Shown: one piece after another, positions 1 to 11,518 of the stretch
Position numbering within the stretch: the stretch's first letter is position 1
Layout of the letters: each line of letters opens with the position of its first letter
Assembly (NCBI GenBank): GCA_023807065.1
Contig: JAJJLU010001026.1
Coordinates: 1-11,518, forward strand
DNA from: Isotricha intestinalis
Lineage: Eukaryota; Ciliophora; Litostomatea; Vestibuliferida; Isotrichidae
Length of the DNA: 11,518 nt
Direction: 5' to 3'
Notes under the pieces: model-generated
Databases searched by the model: none
What the model was told of the DNA's origin: nothing
What the model saw: the letters and a program-made list of their open reading frames with translations, nothing else
Made by a program: the position numbers and the translations under genes

Positions 1-84
1 GAAGGAGCAACAGGGATAGTATGTGAAGGAATTGATAAGAATGGTAAACATTACGCAATTAAAAGAGTAGATAAAAAAATATAA
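1..84 (+). pseudogene. Protein kinase N-lobe fragment, first frame
   Basis: The first 81 bases read in frame 1 as a protein kinase glycine-rich loop (EGATGIVCEG, matching the usual GxxxGxV pattern) followed by the beta-3 strand with the ATP-binding lysine (HYAIKRVDKKI). The frame then closes at a TAA (82-84). The next kinase segment, in frame 3 from about base 75, contains a second beta-3 strand (KYVAIKEIDKARI), so the two pieces duplicate each other and cannot both belong to one normal kinase fold. I found no GT-AG intron that keeps exactly one AIK lysine and joins the frames, because frame 3 has a TAA at 72-74. It may be the remnant of an upstream paralogue, a recombination junction between tandem kinase genes, or an assembly error. 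The window starts inside it, so its 5' part is unseen. Confidence 0.45.
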
Positions 85-3000
85 AAACAAATAAATATGT
101 TGCAATAAAAGAAATAGACAAAGCAAGAATTAATTATAAGAATATTTTAAATGAAATAGAAATAATGAAAAAATTAAAATCAGATAATTCATTATTATTA
201 ATTGACAATATTGAAACAGAAGAATCATATTATTTAATATTAGAATTATGTTATATGTCACTTGAAGAATATATAAAAGAAAGAAAAGATAATTTATCAA
301 TAGAAGAAATAAGAGAAGTATTATTAGAATTAAATAAATGTTTAAAAGAAATGAAAGAAAAGAATATATTACATAGAGATCTTAAACCATCAAATATATT
401 ATTATCAATAAATAAATCTAAAATTAACAAAATTTGCTTTAAAATATCAGATTTTGAATTAAGTAAATTATTAGATGAAAATATTAGTATCAGTATAAAA
501 GGCACTCCATATACAAAGGCTCCTGAAATTTTACAAGGAAAAAATGATTTAATTTGTGATAAAAGTGATATTTGGAGTTTAGGAATAATTATTTATTATA
601 TGTTATTTAAAGAATATCCTTATAATGGACAAAATGAATATCAAATTATTAAAAATATTGAATCAAATAAACAATTAAAACAAATTAATAATGAAGAATT
701 AAATGATTTAATTAAAAAAATGTTAATAATTAATATTAATGAAAGAATTTCTTGGGAAAAATATTTTGAACATCCTTTTTTTAAAATTAATTCAAATCAA
801 ATTCAAATAATTAATCAATCAAATCAATTAAATTTACCTATATTTAATTTAAAATGTGAAAAACATTCAAATGAAGATTTAATTGGTTATTGTCCTGTAT
901 GTAAATGTAATATTTGTATTACTTGTTATCATGAACATTCTTCAAAATCTCATAAAGATATTTTATTTCATGAAATAGGATTTACTGAAGATGAATTAAA
1001 ACAAATTAATGATTTAACAAATCAAATTAAAAATAATATAGAAAAATTAACAAAAATAAAAGATGAAATTACTGAATTTATTGATAAATTTAAATTAATA
1101 AAAGAAAATAGTTTAATTTATGAAAATGATAAAGAAAATAATTTTAAATTATATACTATTGAATGTCTAAAAATAATAAATAATGAATTTAAATTTGAAG
1201 AAAATATTAAACTTCCTGTATTATTAAATAAATGGGAATTAAGGTATATAAATTAATCTTAATATATAGAGTAATATTTATTATTAAAATATAGTGTGTA
1301 ATTTAAATAATTATAGTTAGACAGTAAAATAATTAAATTAATTTTAGAAAGTAAATAAATATATAATAATTTTAGTGTGTAATAATTTAAAGATTAAAAA
1401 ATAGGGAGTAAATAAAAAGATAAATAATAATAGTATGTAAATATATTTAATATGAATATAGCAAGTAAAATTATATAAATGATTTATAGTATGTAAAAAT
1501 ATATTAATTAAAATTAGTACGTAAAATATAATATTAATATATAGAATGTAAATATTATTAATAAAATTAAAAGGGGGTATATATTATAATAATAATTGAA
1601 AAGGAAGTAAAAATTAAGATATAAAATATAGGAAGTAATAAAATCAAAATAATTTAAGGAAGTAAAAAATGAAATTAAATTATAGCCAATAAGATAATAT
1701 TATTAATTAATGATAGGTTGTAAGATAATATTATTAATTAATTATAGTTGGTAAGATAATATTATTAATTAATGATAGGTTGTAAGATAATATTATTAAT
1801 TAGTTATAGAAAGTAAGATAATATTATTAATTAATTATAGAAAGTAATATAATATTATTAATTAATTATAGGATATAAGAGAATTTTATTAATTAATTAT
1901 AGAGTGTAAGATAATAATATGAATCATTATAGTGGGTAATATAATATTATTAATTAAATATAGGTTGTAAGATAATATTATTCATTAATTGTAGAAAGTA
2001 ATATAATATTATTATAATTAAATATAGGATGTAAGATAATTTTATTAATTAATTATAGTTGGTAATATAATATTATTAATTAATATTAGGGAGTAAGATA
2101 ACATTATTAATTAATTATAGGATGTAATATAAAATTATTAATTAATATAGGAAGTATGATAATATTATTAATTAATTATAGGAAGTAATATAAAATGATT
2201 AATTAATTATAGAGAGTAAGATAATATTATTAATTAATTATAGGATGTAAGAGAATTTTATTAATTAATTATAGAGTGTAAGATAATAATATGAATAATT
2301 ATAGTGGGTAATATTATATTATTAATTAATTATAGGTTGTAAGATAATATTATTAATTAATCATAGAAAGTAATATAATATTATTAATTAAATATAGGAT
2401 ATAAGATAATTTTATTGATTAAATATAGTTGGTAATATAATATTATTAATTAATAGTAGGGAGTAAGATAAATTATTAATTAATTATAGGATGTAATATA
2501 AAATTTATTAATTAATATAGGAAGTATGATAATATTTTTAATTAATTATAGGAAGTAATATAAAATGATTAATTAATTATAGTTGGTTAGATAATATTAT
2601 TAATTAATTATAGAGTGTAATATAATATTATTAATTAATTATAGGATGTAGATAATATTATTAATTAATTATAGAGTGTAATATAATATTATTAATTAAT
2701 TATAGGGAATAAGATAATATTATAAACAATTATAGTGGGTAATATTATATTATTAATTAATTATAGGTTGTAAGATAATATTATTAATTAATTATAGGAT
2801 GTAAGATAAAATTATTAATTAATTATAGGTTATAAGATAATATTATTAATTAATTATAGTTGGTAAGATAATATTATTAATTAATGATAGGTTATAAGAT
2901 AATATTATTAATTAATTATAGAAAGTAGGATAAAATTATTAATTAATTATAGGGAGTAAGATAATATTATTAATTATTTATAGTATGTAAGATAATATTA

Positions 3001-3399
3001 TTAATAAAGATTGTAAATTATTTTATTTATTTTAGTGTGTATTATTTTATTTTGATATTTTAGGATGTGAAATTTTAATTTATATTTTAGGATGTGATAT
3101 TATAAATTTATATTTTAGGATGTAAAATATTTATATTATTTTAAAGGATGTAATTAATTTTATAATTTAAGAAAGTAAAATGATTTAAAATATTTAGTGT
3201 GTATATTAATTTTAAAAATAGCCTAAAGTAAAATATTTATTGAATTGAGTGTGTAAATTAATGATTGATTTGTAGGGAGTAAATTAATAATAATATATAT
3301 AGAATGTAAATATAATTAATATTTTTAGGGAGTAATATATTTAATTATTTAAAGAGTGGTTGTAAAGAGGCACATGATATTATTAAACAACAAAAGTGA
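75..3399 (+). CDS. Protein kinase with B-box zinc finger and a tail encoded by single-codon exons (5' end unresolved)
   Basis: Frame 3 is open from base 75; the first ATG is at 165 but the kinase homology starts upstream (VAIKEIDK at 99-122, then the helix-C region NEIEIMKKL), so 165 is not the true start. Counting from the 165 Met: catalytic HRDLKPSN at 70-77, DFE at 96-98 in place of DFG, APE at 119-121, DIWSLG at 135-140, and the conserved Arg at 194. A B-box follows (residues about 231-265: C231, H234, C243, C246, C251, C254, H257, H263), then a likely coiled coil (about 275-345). The first exon stops being coding at 1243. A chain of 72 mini-introns and 71 micro-exons then adds about 72 residues, including CTKCG and CPKCG, and a final exon (3355-3399) ends at TGA. 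Kinase plus B-box suggests a Ser/Thr signalling kinase with a protein-binding zinc module. The kinase and B-box are firm; the spliced tail is inferred from the reading frame; the N-terminus is broken or misassembled. Confidence 0.7.
1244..1688 (+). other. Proximal micro-exons with diverged introns, encoding CTKCGYQYYNGEEEP
   Basis: Introns 1-16 are individual in sequence, 23-28 nt. The micro-exons are A (1270), TGT (1295), ACA (1321), AAA (1348), TGT (1376), GGA (1405), TAT (1434), CAA (1462), TAT (1490), TAC (1518), AAT (1545), GGG (1574), GAA (1604), GAA (1632), GAA (1659) and CCA (1686). The single A joins the AG left at 1242-1243 to make AGA (Arg). The product after that Arg is CTKCGYQYYNGEEEP, with a CxxCG zinc-knuckle turn. 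The ACA exon needs the acceptor at 1320; the nearer AG at 1316 would make a 7-nt exon and break the frame. Because the introns here are unlike each other, this part is not a recent tandem duplication, yet the one-codon spacing is kept. Confidence 0.7.
1689..3009 (+). repeat. Central homogenised 31-bp units: near-identical 28-nt introns with differing codon exons
   Basis: Introns 17-59 are copies of one 28-nt sequence that starts GTAAGATAAT and ends TTAATTATAG; with the 3-nt exon the unit is 31 bp. The exons (17-58) are GTT, TTG, AAA, GAT, AGT, TGG, GGA, GAA, AGA and TAT in varied order. They give VLVKK, then DSWVKDLGDEER (exons from 1872), DSWVKDLGDEEL (exons from 2244), then SDSGWVD, VLVK and GY, ending with the TAT exon at 2984-2986. 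Six introns begin AT instead of GT (at 1689, 1875, 2401, 2709, 2832, 2894). Small length changes within introns are frequent (27-30 nt), while exons stay at three bases. Copy-number change of this unit would add or remove one codon without changing frame. Confidence 0.75.
1872..2613 (+). repeat. Higher-order tandem duplication of twelve intron-exon units (about 370 bp each)
   Basis: The twelve units from the GAT exon at 1872 to 2243 are repeated at 2244-2613. Exon order is identical except for the last codon (AGA then TTG), giving DSWVKDLGDEER and DSWVKDLGDEEL. Intron-specific variants repeat in the same order: the GAATTTTATT intron after the first GAT, the ATAATAATATGAAT intron before TGG, and the AATGATT intron after the second GAA. 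So this is a segmental duplication rather than independent evolution. A shorter third relative surrounds the TGG exon at 2736. The VLVK exons at 1717-1812 and 2829-2924 are also related, sharing an intron that ends AATGATAG. Confidence 0.8.
3010..3354 (+). other. Distal micro-exons with diverged introns, encoding ICDDDDKCPKCGNG
   Basis: Introns become individual again (21-25 nt). The micro-exons are ATT (3010), TGT (3036), GAT (3064), GAT (3091), GAT (3119), GAT (3147), AAA (3172), TGT (3198), CCTAAA (3222), TGT (3250), GGA (3276), AAT (3303) and GGA (3329). They read ICDDDDKCPKCGNG. CPKCG is a classic zinc-ribbon knuckle and pairs with CTKCG at the other end of the array; a further Cys precedes the acidic run. 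CCTAAA is the only two-codon exon, as if one intron had been lost or never gained there. Donors include GTGAA and GTGAT; acceptors include TAAAG, TTAAG and TTGAG. Confidence 0.7.
3355..3399 (+). other. Final coding exon of the kinase/B-box gene
   Basis: After the acceptor AAAG (ending 3354) the frame reads SGCKEAHDIIKQQK and stops at TGA (3397-3399). It continues directly from the last GGA micro-exon, giving GNGSGCKEAH with a further Cys and His that could be zinc ligands. An AATAAA overlaps the stop (3399-3404) and could serve as a polyadenylation signal. Confidence 0.6.
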
Positions 3400-8990: not shown

Positions 8991-11012
8991 ATGGAAAAAG
9001 CTTTATATTCAGCTTTACAATTTCAAAACATAGATGGAATAGAACAATCCTCATTTACAGAATATTTTAACTCTGTATTGCAAAACTCAATAAATCCAAA
9101 AATATTTATAGTAATAGGAAAAACAAGGGAAGGAAAAAGTACTCTTTTCAATCATATTTTATCTGATAAAACATTAAATACACCAAATTTAAGATTATCA
9201 AATCCTTTCAATGCTCAAGGAGGTGAAGAAGCAATAACAAAAGAATTTGTATTTTATGGACCAATTAAAGGAAGTGAAATTTCAAGAAGAAATAATATTA
9301 AATATATAGGAGATGAATGTGATTGTTTTTTCATTGATACAGAAGGTTCTGGAAATCTTTATCAAATGTCTAAATTTTTATATCATGGTATTTTCTCTTT
9401 GGAAAGTATTGCTACTTCAATTTTATTTGTTTCTAAAGGAACTATTGAACAAGAAGCACTTTTATATATTTCAAGACATATTCAAACTTCAAAATTATTT
9501 AATTCAAATGTTAATAATAATTTCCCTGGTTTAGCTATTATAAGTCGAGATGTTGGGTTAAAAGATTATGATATTCCTTTTGAACAACTAGATATTGAAA
9601 GAATTAATCAAGATAATTATAAATTAAATGACTTAAAAAAAAGATTAAATGAAAGAACACAAATTATTTTTGATGAAGATAACTTAAAATATATTGCTGA
9701 ACCTCCTTTAGACATGCCTTTTCTTTTTTTAAATTCTATTAAAGATCTTTGGAAATTTTTAATTAAAAATGCGCAAAATCAATCAAGTAAAACACCTAAT
9801 CAAATAATTAATAAATTTATTTCTCATGAAAAAATAATTAAAAAATATCCAGTTTTATTAGATACTAATGTTCCAATGGAAGAGACTTTTAATAATGTCT
9901 TTTCAATTGAACTTCAAGAAGCTTCAAATAAAATAAACAACGAAAATTCAAATTTAATTGTTAATGAAATAAATAATTTTTCTCTTTTGGAATTATCTAA
10001 TTTTAATCCATTAATTTATGAAAATAGGGTTTTAAATGAATTAGAAAATAAATTTCAAAATGAAACAAATTTAAGGTATGATGGAATGAAAGAAATTATT
10101 CCAACACAATATAATTTAATATTATTATATCTTAAAGAAAATTTTAAATTATTAATTCAAAATAAAATCAATGAAAAAATGAAACACTTTGAAAACCAAA
10201 TGAAATCTTTCATTGAAACAGCACAAATAAACTCAGAAATAATTATTAAACAAAAAATTTCTGATGAAATAAAAAAATTATCGTCTCAACAATTAAGGGA
10301 GATTAATATTGATTCATATGTTAATAAAAATACTCAAGAAGAAATTGAAATATTTGAAAAAGAGGGAAATAAATTATTTGAAAATCTAAAAAATATATCC
10401 CAAACAAAAGATTTCTATAAAGCTAAATCTGAATCATTGGAAAATTTAATAAAATTGTATAGAAAAGAAGAATTATTAAAAAAATTTGAATCTCATCCTC
10501 CTTGGCCAAAAAATATAAATGAATTATTAAAAGAACAAAATATTAAAAATCTTATTCCTCAAAATAAATATACTCTTTACTTAAATAAAAGACCTTATAT
10601 TGTTGTAGCAAGAAATGATGGTAAAATATCACTTCCAAATATTAAAGCTTTAGAATTTTATAGATATGAAGAACTTCCATGTTGGAGAAATAGTGGGGGA
10701 AAAGTATATGAAAGTTGGAATAATAATATAGATACTTGGTTTGAACCTGAAACTCAAGTTTTATTATTATCAACATGTAATGTATATCAAAATAATTGGT
10801 CTGAAGGAGGTCATAAATCTCTTTTTGTAACTAGACCACCTCGTCCTCAACAAAAAAAAACTACTTTGAATATTAATGTCGATAATCCTTGGAAAATAAA
10901 AGAATTTAATAAATCAGGAAGTGTTTCTGTTTCTTTATCTAATTACAATCATAATATGTATGTTTCAGGAAGTGGAGGATCTGTCCAAAATATTAAGTTA
11001 GAATTTAGTTGA
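8991..11012 (+). CDS. GBP/atlastin-like large GTPase
   Basis: The start at 8991 (MEKALYSALQ) gives 673 residues. An in-frame ATG at 8907 would add 28 hydrophobic residues (MFLIFIFSLKKSYPL...) that look like translated AT-rich leader, although a membrane anchor cannot be excluded. Counting from 8907, the G1 loop is GKTREGKST (71-79), the G2 Thr is probably T111, G3 is DTEG at 144-147, and SRD (213-215) matches the RD motif that replaces NKxD in the guanylate-binding-protein/atlastin group. After the G domain come about 270 residues of helical, coiled-coil-prone sequence with many Glu and Lys. The last roughly 130 residues form a compact Trp/Gly-rich module (CWRNSGGKVYESW, STCNVYQNNWSEGGHKSLFV) that I do not recognise. 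The family hydrolyses GTP and self-assembles on membranes or, in animals, on pathogens. This is the last gene before the telomere, so a fast-evolving subtelomeric family is plausible. No introns are seen; the stop is TGA. Confidence 0.85.
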   Translation: MEKALYSALQFQNIDGIEQSSFTEYFNSVLQNSINPKIFIVIGKTREGKSTLFNHILSDKTLNTPNLRLSNPFNAQGGEEAITKEFVFYGPIKGSEISRRNNIKYIGDECDCFFIDTEGSGNLYQMSKFLYHGIFSLESIATSILFVSKGTIEQEALLYISRHIQTSKLFNSNVNNNFPGLAIISRDVGLKDYDIPFEQLDIERINQDNYKLNDLKKRLNERTQIIFDEDNLKYIAEPPLDMPFLFLNSIKDLWKFLIKNAQNQSSKTPNQIINKFISHEKIIKKYPVLLDTNVPMEETFNNVFSIELQEASNKINNENSNLIVNEINNFSLLELSNFNPLIYENRVLNELENKFQNETNLRYDGMKEIIPTQYNLILLYLKENFKLLIQNKINEKMKHFENQMKSFIETAQINSEIIIKQKISDEIKKLSSQQLREINIDSYVNKNTQEEIEIFEKEGNKLFENLKNISQTKDFYKAKSESLENLIKLYRKEELLKKFESHPPWPKNINELLKEQNIKNLIPQNKYTLYLNKRPYIVVARNDGKISLPNIKALEFYRYEELPCWRNSGGKVYESWNNNIDTWFEPETQVLLLSTCNVYQNNWSEGGHKSLFVTRPPRPQQKKTTLNINVDNPWKIKEFNKSGSVSVSLSNYNHNMYVSGSGGSVQNIKLEFS

Positions 11013-11479
11013 GAATAATTTTTTTTTTTTTATTTTAATTTTTAAATTTGATTTTTTTTGAGGTTAAATAATATTTATTATTTTGAAACAAAATAAAAAT
11101 TATTTTTTATGGAGGATTGAATATTATTGTAAATCTTCTTATTTCAATTAAAAAAATATTGTCTTATATTAGGTTATTTAATAAAATTTTGAAGAGAAAA
11201 CGCTTAATTTTCATAGATTTTGTTTTAATTATTTTTTCATATATTTGTGTTTCCCCTAATCCCCATATATTTAATTAAAATAAATTAATAATTTTTAACA
11301 TAAAATTCTATGAATTTTTAAATAAAAATATATAGATTTAAAGTAAAAAAATAATTATTTTATTTCATTATTCATTAAATATAAATGATTGTTTAAAATT
11401 AATATTTTTTTATTTAAATTTATATTTTTTTCAAATTCAGAATGTAAATTAAAAAAATATTAATTTATTTTTATTAAAT
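11013..11479. other. Subtelomeric spacer
   Basis: This is 467 AT-rich bases between the GTPase stop and the telomere repeats. It opens with a long T run (from about 11020), likely the 3' end of the GTPase transcript. It contains no ORF of note and no micro-exon pattern. The only G/C-rich element is the short inverted telomere-like motif at 11253-11264. Confidence 0.6.
11253..11264 (-). repeat. Inverted interstitial telomere-like motif
   Basis: CCCCTAATCCCC read on the other strand is GGGGATTAGGGG, i.e. one GGGGATT telomere unit followed by A and GGGG. It stands out as the only C-run in some 400 bases of A/T. It may be a decayed remnant of an older chromosome end or a telomere-protein binding site; one copy is weak evidence. 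Confidence 0.4.
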
Positions 11480-11518
11480 GGGGATTGGGGATTGGGGATT
11501 GGGGATTGGGGATTGGGG
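11480..11518 (+). repeat. Telomere repeat array, (GGGGATT)n
   Basis: Five perfect GGGGATT units plus a final GGGG run to the last base of the window. The G-rich strand points 5' to 3' toward the end, as in true telomeres, and the repeat starts abruptly after AT-rich sequence. The 7-bp unit is related to TTGGGG and TTTTGGGG types but has an added A. Position at the edge, purity and orientation support a chromosome end; the array may be longer than shown. Confidence 0.85.

Follow-up and report, generated by a model that had tools for sequence, protein, structure and literature searches.

We analysed an 11,518-nt stretch of Isotricha intestinalis DNA (hereafter the window) and found, at positions 1244 to 3354 of the + strand, an array of micro-exons nearly all of which are a single codon long. 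The array is very probably protein-coding. Sister genes keep its ends codon by codon, and the U1/U2 spliceosome would cut out its 72 predicted introns singly via intron definition, adding a predicted zinc-binding tail to a protein kinase. The evidence gives a high probability that the segment is truly coding and is spliced at one-codon resolution, although the splicing itself is something we infer.

Results

The array parsed without leftover into 72 intron-like pieces of 21–30 nt, 35 of which are 28 nt long, and 71 micro-exons, of which 69 are 3 nt, one is 1 nt and one is 6 nt (214 exon bases in all). This parse reproduced the count given in the original prediction (72 introns of 21–30 nt and 71 micro-exons, 69 of them 3 nt long). 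Five base shuffles of the window yielded no comparable chain. The intron ends departed from the original prediction, which had introns starting with GT: 66 of the 72 are GT-AG, whereas six are AT-AG. All six have ATAAG donors and lie within the core of the array, one of them parsed at 1689..1716 and the other five beginning at 1875, 2401, 2709, 2832 and 2894.

The features in this paragraph are all on the + strand. The long exon preceding the array (75..1243) encodes a protein kinase domain (Pfam Pkinase, E 2.9e-45) and a weak B-box zinc finger (Pfam zf-B_box, E 3.7e-4, under its cut-off), and ends in KWEL followed by the AG of a split Arg codon. The 1-nt exon, an A at 1270..1270, completes this codon (AG|A), and with it the intron phase changes from 2 to 0. 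Throughout the 5′ flank of the array (1295..1688), which holds the conserved half CTKCGYQYYNGEEEP, every codon is a separate exon and the introns have diverged. The core (1689..3009) combines similar introns, with a 31-nt repeat period, and variable codons, and includes a 12-unit block duplication in which DSWVKDLGDEE occurs twice. The 3′ flank (3010..3354) holds the conserved half ICDDDDKCPKCGNG and contains the 6-nt exon CCTAAA (Pro-Lys) at 3222..3227, placed by the parse and by comparison of C-ends. The last coding exon, SGCKEAHDIIKQQK plus the stop codon TGA, was placed at 3355..3399 by the parse and the last exons of relatives.

Joined as predicted, the exons were expected to be free of stops, and this held: the frame leaving the kinase exon stayed open through to the TGA at 3397–3399, whereas the remaining two frames of the joined micro-exons contained 1 and 17 stops. 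In 20,000 shuffles of the micro-exon bases, stops averaged 7.6, and 0.02% of the shuffles had none. A parser blind to stops found none among 624 three-nucleotide exons of 15 phase-0 loci; these loci had been selected as phase 0 beforehand, and before phase sorting 22 of 692 triplets were stops. The claim that the micro-exons use gene-typical codons stood in part. Their codons fit the codon usage of the window's open reading frames better than intron triplets do (+161 bits), but leucine is encoded by TTG at all five of its micro-exon positions, against a preference for TTA in the open reading frames (186 of 245 Leu codons). The idea that exons avoid TA endings, which would form TAG with the donor, failed (40 of 72 versus 2155 of 3624).

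Similar arrays occur elsewhere in the same genome, in kinase genes, a small zinc-ribbon-like gene and a trypsin-like protease gene. With 3-nt exons, a two-exon pattern matched this genome 643 times versus 62 for the reversed control, whereas the same pattern with 4-nt exons matched once versus 38 for its control; a three-exon pattern gave 129 matches versus 0. When exon length was left under a flat prior, 622 exons of 3 nt were recovered and no other length rose above 15. The phase is 0 in some arrays and 2 in others, and is constant within an array wherever the parse is clean.

Comparison of 21 paralog pairs separated codons from introns. Over the first 14–15 codons, base agreement was 0.679 versus 0.331 when shifted, whereas the introns at the 5′ end agreed at 0.683 versus 0.671 when shifted and therefore had no positional similarity. 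The codon excess over the shifted control exceeded the intron excess in all 21 pairs, and agreement at codon positions 1, 2 and 3 was 0.673, 0.778 and 0.587, lowest at position 3. In the closest relative, L060, 41 of 45 exon bases (91%) versus 332 of 355 intron positions (94%) were kept, so that codons fared no better than introns. In a directed search, the leader structure with the 1-nt exon could be placed in all nine paralogs tested, the window included, with GT-AG on both surrounding introns in seven of the nine. The position of the 6-nt exon was kept in seven of eight C-ends examined, again counting the window's. L075, picked by its array matches alone, carries both conserved halves; these fall in different frames, and the middle does not parse.

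Sister kinases carry the same predicted zinc-binding tail at their ends, likewise split codon by codon. Eight aligned spliced tails share invariant W, E, L, C, C, G, P, I, C, C, P and C residues in an alignment that leaves out L044, L060, L061, L063 and L005, takes in L047 and L050 minus a 2-nt piece that did not parse and L062 minus the stretch separating its two chains, and includes one L046 Cys that depends on odd boundaries. The spacing C-x5-C-P-x-C was constant in the seven C-ends read by the strict parser (window, L045–L048, L050 and L060). In Pfam, spliced tails gave zinc-ribbon matches below cut-off only, and a search of 5.8 billion proteins returned 41 candidates for the tail, none with E<=1. 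A six-frame search of the same genome for an uninterrupted copy gave two matches, one to the last exon of the tail itself and the other at 30% identity (E 0.56). Among the 120 alpha-tubulin matches listed, of 7662, the highest identity to a named organism was 92% (Naegleria and several plants), and unnamed entries reached 98% and 95%. Another protein of the window had 24 matches, one of them named (Piromyces); matches at 58–77% identity suggest that some relatives have sequenced genomes.

The genome contains genes for U1 (72.6 bits) and U2 (146.3 bits) snRNAs, both above cut-off, and U1 carries ACTTACCT, which is complementary to the array donors. Across the wider set, 59 of 834 introns were recovered only by permitting off-consensus ends (GA, AT, TT and GC donors; TG and other acceptors), a count that excludes ATAAG donors, which the parser permitted from the outset. 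TG acceptors of L061 and L062 fall within the C-x5-C stretch. Strict chains with leftover splitting had a stop-free phase in 19 of 21 cases; L047 and L050, which lacked one, each have a 2-nt remainder and a stop. A looser second parser, which overran the true ends of some arrays (the window's too) and mishandled the 1-nt exon, left 7 of 24 loci with no stop-free phase (L047, L049, L050, L058, L062, L071 and L073). The one stop of L073 under this parser is its presumed stop codon, and at L005 the stop-free phase differs from the expected one. An automatic frame test of 10 arrays found an upstream frame of at least 300 aa in six (window, L045, L048, L049, L051 and L001), with no stop in that frame in five of the six. 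The two stops shown by L048 arise from a 1-nt exon that the script overlooked; when its leader is taken from the directed search, L048 is in phase 0 with no stops.

Much of the array is also repetitive, a property absent from the original prediction. Positions 1690–3005 form a 31-nt tandem repeat of 42.6 copies with 82% matches, and the flanks have a weaker periodicity of 26–28 nt (for example, 28 nt at 63% in 1250–1563, and 76% matches in 3012–3164). Core introns are about 88% identical at any distance and core codons differ at 63% of sites, and we therefore propose introner-like copying plus block duplication as the origin of the core introns. Single-unit tandem duplication was disfavoured as the origin of the core, since intron likeness is flat with distance and adjacent codons agree no more than far ones, except in the 12-unit block. 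Flank introns are 0.71 alike versus 0.64–0.73 between arrays for most locus pairs, and the layout is still kept. Identical 28-mers occur in introns of the window, L061 and L063, which form one gene family. Introns of L004 and L073 are 0.86 alike between the loci and 0.88 and 0.85 within them, and the joined products differ as far as they could be read, L004 being cut by the contig start. These near-identical core intron families, some common to several loci, suggest introner-like spread.

Discussion

The original prediction of a real coding segment, whose introns would be removed by intron definition, is supported by paralogs that keep codons while their introns lack positional similarity, by invariant residues and spacings, by the 1-nt and 6-nt exons and by the U1 and U2 genes. 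The same DNA could instead be a non-coding minisatellite within one long intron or 3′ UTR, its GT and AG belonging to the repeat unit, with a transcript that stops at the TAA at 1254–1256 or joins 1243 to 3355. The 31-nt repeat and the weaker flank periodicity fit this reading, as does the close pair of the window and L060, in which codons are kept no better than introns; the unspliced kinase frame does reach that TAA, and, read by eye, the frame also stays open into the last exon when the array is removed in one piece. We nevertheless consider it very improbable, because distant relatives keep codons, least at position 3, around introns that have no positional similarity, and the flanks retain their layout although their introns are hardly more alike than introns of most pairs of arrays. 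The absence of stops in 624 exons and the conserved 1-nt and 6-nt exons also argue against it.

The remaining alternatives concern how the interruptions are removed. In a variant that overlaps with the coding interpretation, and which is unlikely but deserves some weight, the ends are spliced codon by codon and many core codons, especially beside AT, GA, TT and TG boundaries, are commonly skipped to give a shorter, variable tail. Off-consensus boundaries exist, the window's six are all in the core, and the frame survives the loss of any one-codon exon. However, the TG acceptors of L061 and L062 are inside C-x5-C, whose length is constant in the seven strictly read C-ends; skipping there would break the motif, which makes it likely that some of the odd sites are in use. 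A non-spliceosomal system of RNA removal would explain tolerance of odd ends, of which the 59 off-consensus introns besides ATAAG donors are examples, but it too is very improbable given 66 GT-AG introns in the window and the presence of U1 and U2 genes. Removal from DNA during development is scarcely credible. Ciliate internal eliminated sequences have TA direct repeats flanking their excision points, and the array pieces, to our knowledge, resemble short eliminated sequences in size and A+T richness; by inspection, however, the ends that restore conserved codons are GT..AG rather than TA repeats, and U1 is complementary to the donors.

Under the preferred reading, an ordinary U1/U2 spliceosome would remove each of the 72 predicted introns one by one through intron definition, joining 69 one-codon exons with the 1-nt and 6-nt exons and appending the predicted tail to the kinase. 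The order would most simply be 5′ to 3′, the growing upstream exon gaining one codon per step, so that at every step the spliceosome would face an ordinary upstream exon followed by an ordinary tiny intron. Because every exon is one codon and the phase is constant, adding, losing or skipping units would alter the protein by whole residues and cause no frameshift; the middle of the tail may therefore be a frame-safe variable region. The chances are even that this is a new gene architecture, with coding sequence divided into one codon per exon in many genes of one genome, and that short intron families built it by self-copying between codons at a constant 3-nt spacing; DNA resembling a minisatellite would thereby have become a frame-safe ledger of codons.

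Several known systems share parts of this layout. Schistosoma micro-exon genes have 10–20 exons of 3–81 bp, and their introns range from 100 to almost 5000 bp (PMC10526429); like them, the array is a run of mostly short, frame-preserving exons, and the smallest size there is also 3 bp, but here about 70 consecutive exons are nearly all exactly 3 nt (69 of 71) and the introns are 21–30 nt. In size, these introns resemble the ultra-short introns of ciliates (about 25 bp) and nucleomorphs (18–20 bp), for which intron definition is thought to be prevalent, whereas codon-by-codon splitting is not described in the excerpted text of that source (PMC5014332). Near-identical introns at different loci recall introner families (PMC9860276), but the copies here, just 27–31 nt long, follow one another head to tail, separated by a single codon. 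A one-nucleotide exon in Fusarium CYP621A (PMC12940212) and exons of 3–6 nt (PMC13149111) appear in the available portions of those sources as isolated micro-exons, unlike the arrays here. The GT..AG ends of 66 of the 72 introns, the U1 and U2 genes and the complementarity of the U1 5′ end to the donors are features of U2-type spliceosomal introns. We know of no codon-by-codon splitting in genomes with ultra-short introns.

The machinery is known, and what is new is the gene layout. The segment is likely turned into protein after about 70 splicing steps, a density that would far exceed that of any gene that we found described. If transcripts confirm it, one-codon exons can follow each other about seventy times, outside models of exon recognition, and the spliceosome must operate by intron definition on introns of 21–30 nt set 3 nt apart and complete about 70 steps, probably tolerating AT-AG and GT-TG ends. 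With near-identical introns around unlike codons, the array would offer a natural test bed for the order and fidelity of splicing and for intron gain. It would also serve to study how gene finders miss proteins, since such a tail is invisible as an open reading frame.

Structure of the micro-exon array

The original prediction placed 72 introns of 21–30 nt downstream from the kinase exon, together with 71 micro-exons, all but two of which are 3 nt long (69), and our parse of positions 1244–3354 (forward strand) bore out this count. It had also named GT and AG as the ends of spliceosomal introns; this holds for 66 of the 72 introns, whereas the other six are AT-AG, all with an ATAAG donor. The joined micro-exons encode RCTKCGYQYYNGEEEPVLVKKDSWVKDLGDEERDSWVKDLGDEELSDSGWVDVLVKGYICDDDDKCPKCGNG, and the last exon (3355–3399) encodes SGCKEAHDIIKQQK followed by a stop codon. 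The array contains 72 introns within 214 exon bases; the figure for intron-rich genes is 6–7 introns per kb of coding sequence (PMC3174169). In Schistosoma micro-exon genes, 10–20 exons of 3–81 bp are separated by introns that range from 100 to almost 5000 bp (PMC10526429). Introns measure about 25 bp in ciliates and 18–20 bp in nucleomorphs (PMC5014332), and a one-nucleotide exon has been reported from Fusarium (PMC12940212). No description of arrays of one-codon exons was found among the titles and abstract openings listed, with bioRxiv and most subscription journals outside the coverage.

The array is distinguishable from chance

Five shuffled versions of the window yielded no comparable chain with a parser blind to stop codons. 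When the micro-exon bases were shuffled in 20,000 trials, a mean of 7.6 stops was obtained and zero stops occurred in 0.02% of the trials. Triplets offset by one or two bases likewise avoid stops because they overlap with GT or AG, and thus the case does not rest on a lack of stops by itself. The micro-exons were 161 bits likelier under window ORF codon usage than under a model of intron triplets. Across the genome, two successive 3-nt exons, each bounded by AG and GTA, gave 643 matches versus 62 for a reversed-pattern control, whereas the same pattern with 4-nt exons gave 1 match versus 38. The three-exon pattern gave 129 matches versus 0, spread over at least 26 contigs among the 100 matches listed. 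When arrays were reparsed with the exon-length preference turned off, 622 exons were 3 nt long and no other length was represented more than 15 times.

Conservation of codons among sister loci

The kinase exon matched 108 places in the genome at E≤1e-10, a number that includes the window's own and counts some genes as two pieces. Among 19 relative loci (L024–L042), the kinase is followed by a micro-exon array in eight (L024–L028, L033, L040 and L041) and extended as a plain ORF in nine (L029–L032, L034, L035, L037, L038 and L042), with L036 and L039 placed in neither class. The plain ORFs of L029–L031, L035, L037, L038 and L042 end in repeats, and therefore the same kinase bears differing tails. 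We take these repeats to resemble BspA/DUF285, or MORN in the case of L042.

Alignment of eight spliced tails, the window and seven others, identified invariant W, E, L, C, C, G, P, I, C, C, P and C residues. In it, L047 and L050 were entered minus an unparsed 2-nt piece, L062 minus the part separating its two chains, and L046 with a Cys supported by odd boundaries. With the strict parser, the C-x5-C-P-x-C spacing is fixed at seven C-ends (window, L045–L048, L050 and L060); L058 and L062 show it as well, provided that odd splice sites are allowed. For 21 pairs from seven loci, compared over the first 15 codons (14 where L058 takes part) and leaving aside L044, whose tail is off the motif, and L046, whose leader requires odd sites, codon bases agreed at 0.679 versus 0.331 when shifted by five. 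Agreement at codon positions 1, 2 and 3 was 0.673, 0.778 and 0.587. Introns of the same pairs gave 0.683 versus 0.671 when shifted, and hence carry no positional signal. L060, the closest relative, was counted against the coding reading because its codons are no better kept than its introns (41 of 45 exon bases versus 332 of 355 positions in 15 introns).

A directed search, which left out L049 and L051 as lacking the WELR leader, could place the 1-nt exon A in all nine leaders; both surrounding introns are GT-AG in seven, with odd sites needed in L046 and L047. A 6-nt exon, CCNNNN, is present at seven of the eight C-ends examined, and no stop occurs among 624 3-nt exons of 15 phase-0 loci. In L075, a locus chosen solely by array matches, CTRCQYEFWKGEEKP and CYNDNACPNCG were found once more. 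Its strict and looser parses contain 78 and 90 introns, respectively; the parse is incomplete across the middle and the two halves fall in different frames.

Proposed splicing route and odd boundaries

U1 and U2 genes in the genome exceed Rfam cut-offs, and U1 contains ACTTACCT, the complement of GTAAG-type donors. The simplest route would be intron definition in 5′ to 3′ order, in which each splicing step would add one codon onto the growing upstream exon. Sister-gene arrays depart from the consensus beyond AT-AG, with GA, TT or GC at the donor site and TG at the acceptor site. Off-consensus introns numbered 59 of 834 in the pass that divided leftovers, excluding ATAAG donors, which were permitted from the outset. 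With a single codon per exon and one phase throughout, any skip stays in frame, which may explain tolerance of odd sites. L061 and L062 have introns ending in TTTG rather than TAG at conserved positions, making them candidate GT-TG introns. These TG acceptors sit within the C-x5-C stretch, and so some odd sites are probably used.

Origin of the core introns

Among 35 core units of 28+3 nt (1689–3009), the per-site difference was 0.108 for introns and 0.628 for exons, with zero differences by construction at T +2 and the final AG, which the parser demands; all 72 introns satisfy both in a leftover-free parse. Intron similarity was flat (0.87–0.90) over distances of 1–25 units, except at 12 units, where a peak of 0.92 is the mark of a block duplication. 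Stepwise duplication of an intron-plus-codon unit predicts otherwise and is disfavored. Identical 28-mers are common to the window, L061 and L063, which belong to one gene family. L004 and L073 share a 27-mer, their joined products being different as far as read; intron similarity is 0.86 between these loci, and 0.88 and 0.85 within them. Introner-like spread, or intron homogenization combined with selection on codons, fits better than stepwise duplication.

Arrays in other genes

Arrays of other genes use phase 2, as in the trypsin-like protease gene L001 on contig C2 (Trypsin_2, E 1.8e-6; upstream frame of 306 aa). Continuing its upstream frame gives 0 stops in 41 array codons, with 7 and 3 in the other frames; its relative L070 (C1294) gives 0 in 22, with 4 and 2. 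These two phase-2 tails represent a second gene family with arrays, and L071 (C1592) has similar introns. L073 is predicted to encode a 69-residue zinc-ribbon-like protein, MSEKYCYKCGG...YCFHCGKFIY, with one codon per exon, a reading that requires a 9-nt first exon, an assumed start codon, one GC-AG intron and one GT-TG intron. Intron-like units apparently go on beyond its TGA (about 2390–2475).

Genomic context

The genome comprises 57.3 Mb in 2153 contigs, of which the window is C826. Telomere-like GGGGATT repeats close the window at 11479–11518, about 8 kb from the array, and telomere-like CCCCAAT repeats open another contig (L043, 1–24). Five window ORFs exceed 300 aa in the standard code, and the first is a protein kinase that also has a weak B-box. 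Its start looks doubled (1–110): an N-lobe ending in KHYAIKRVDKKI and a stop precedes a second, frame-shifted N-lobe (NKYVAIKEIDK) that opens into the long kinase ORF. The tubulin genes examined read without interruptions, with alpha and beta in a divergent pair; of the 120 alpha-tubulin matches listed out of 7662, those to Naegleria and several plants are at 92% identity. By eye, the protein encoded at 8991–11009 resembles a large GTPase; it had no Pfam match. Among its 24 homologs (34–100% identity), the sole named one is from Piromyces sp. E2 (51% over half), a likeness hinting at shared habitat or gene transfer.
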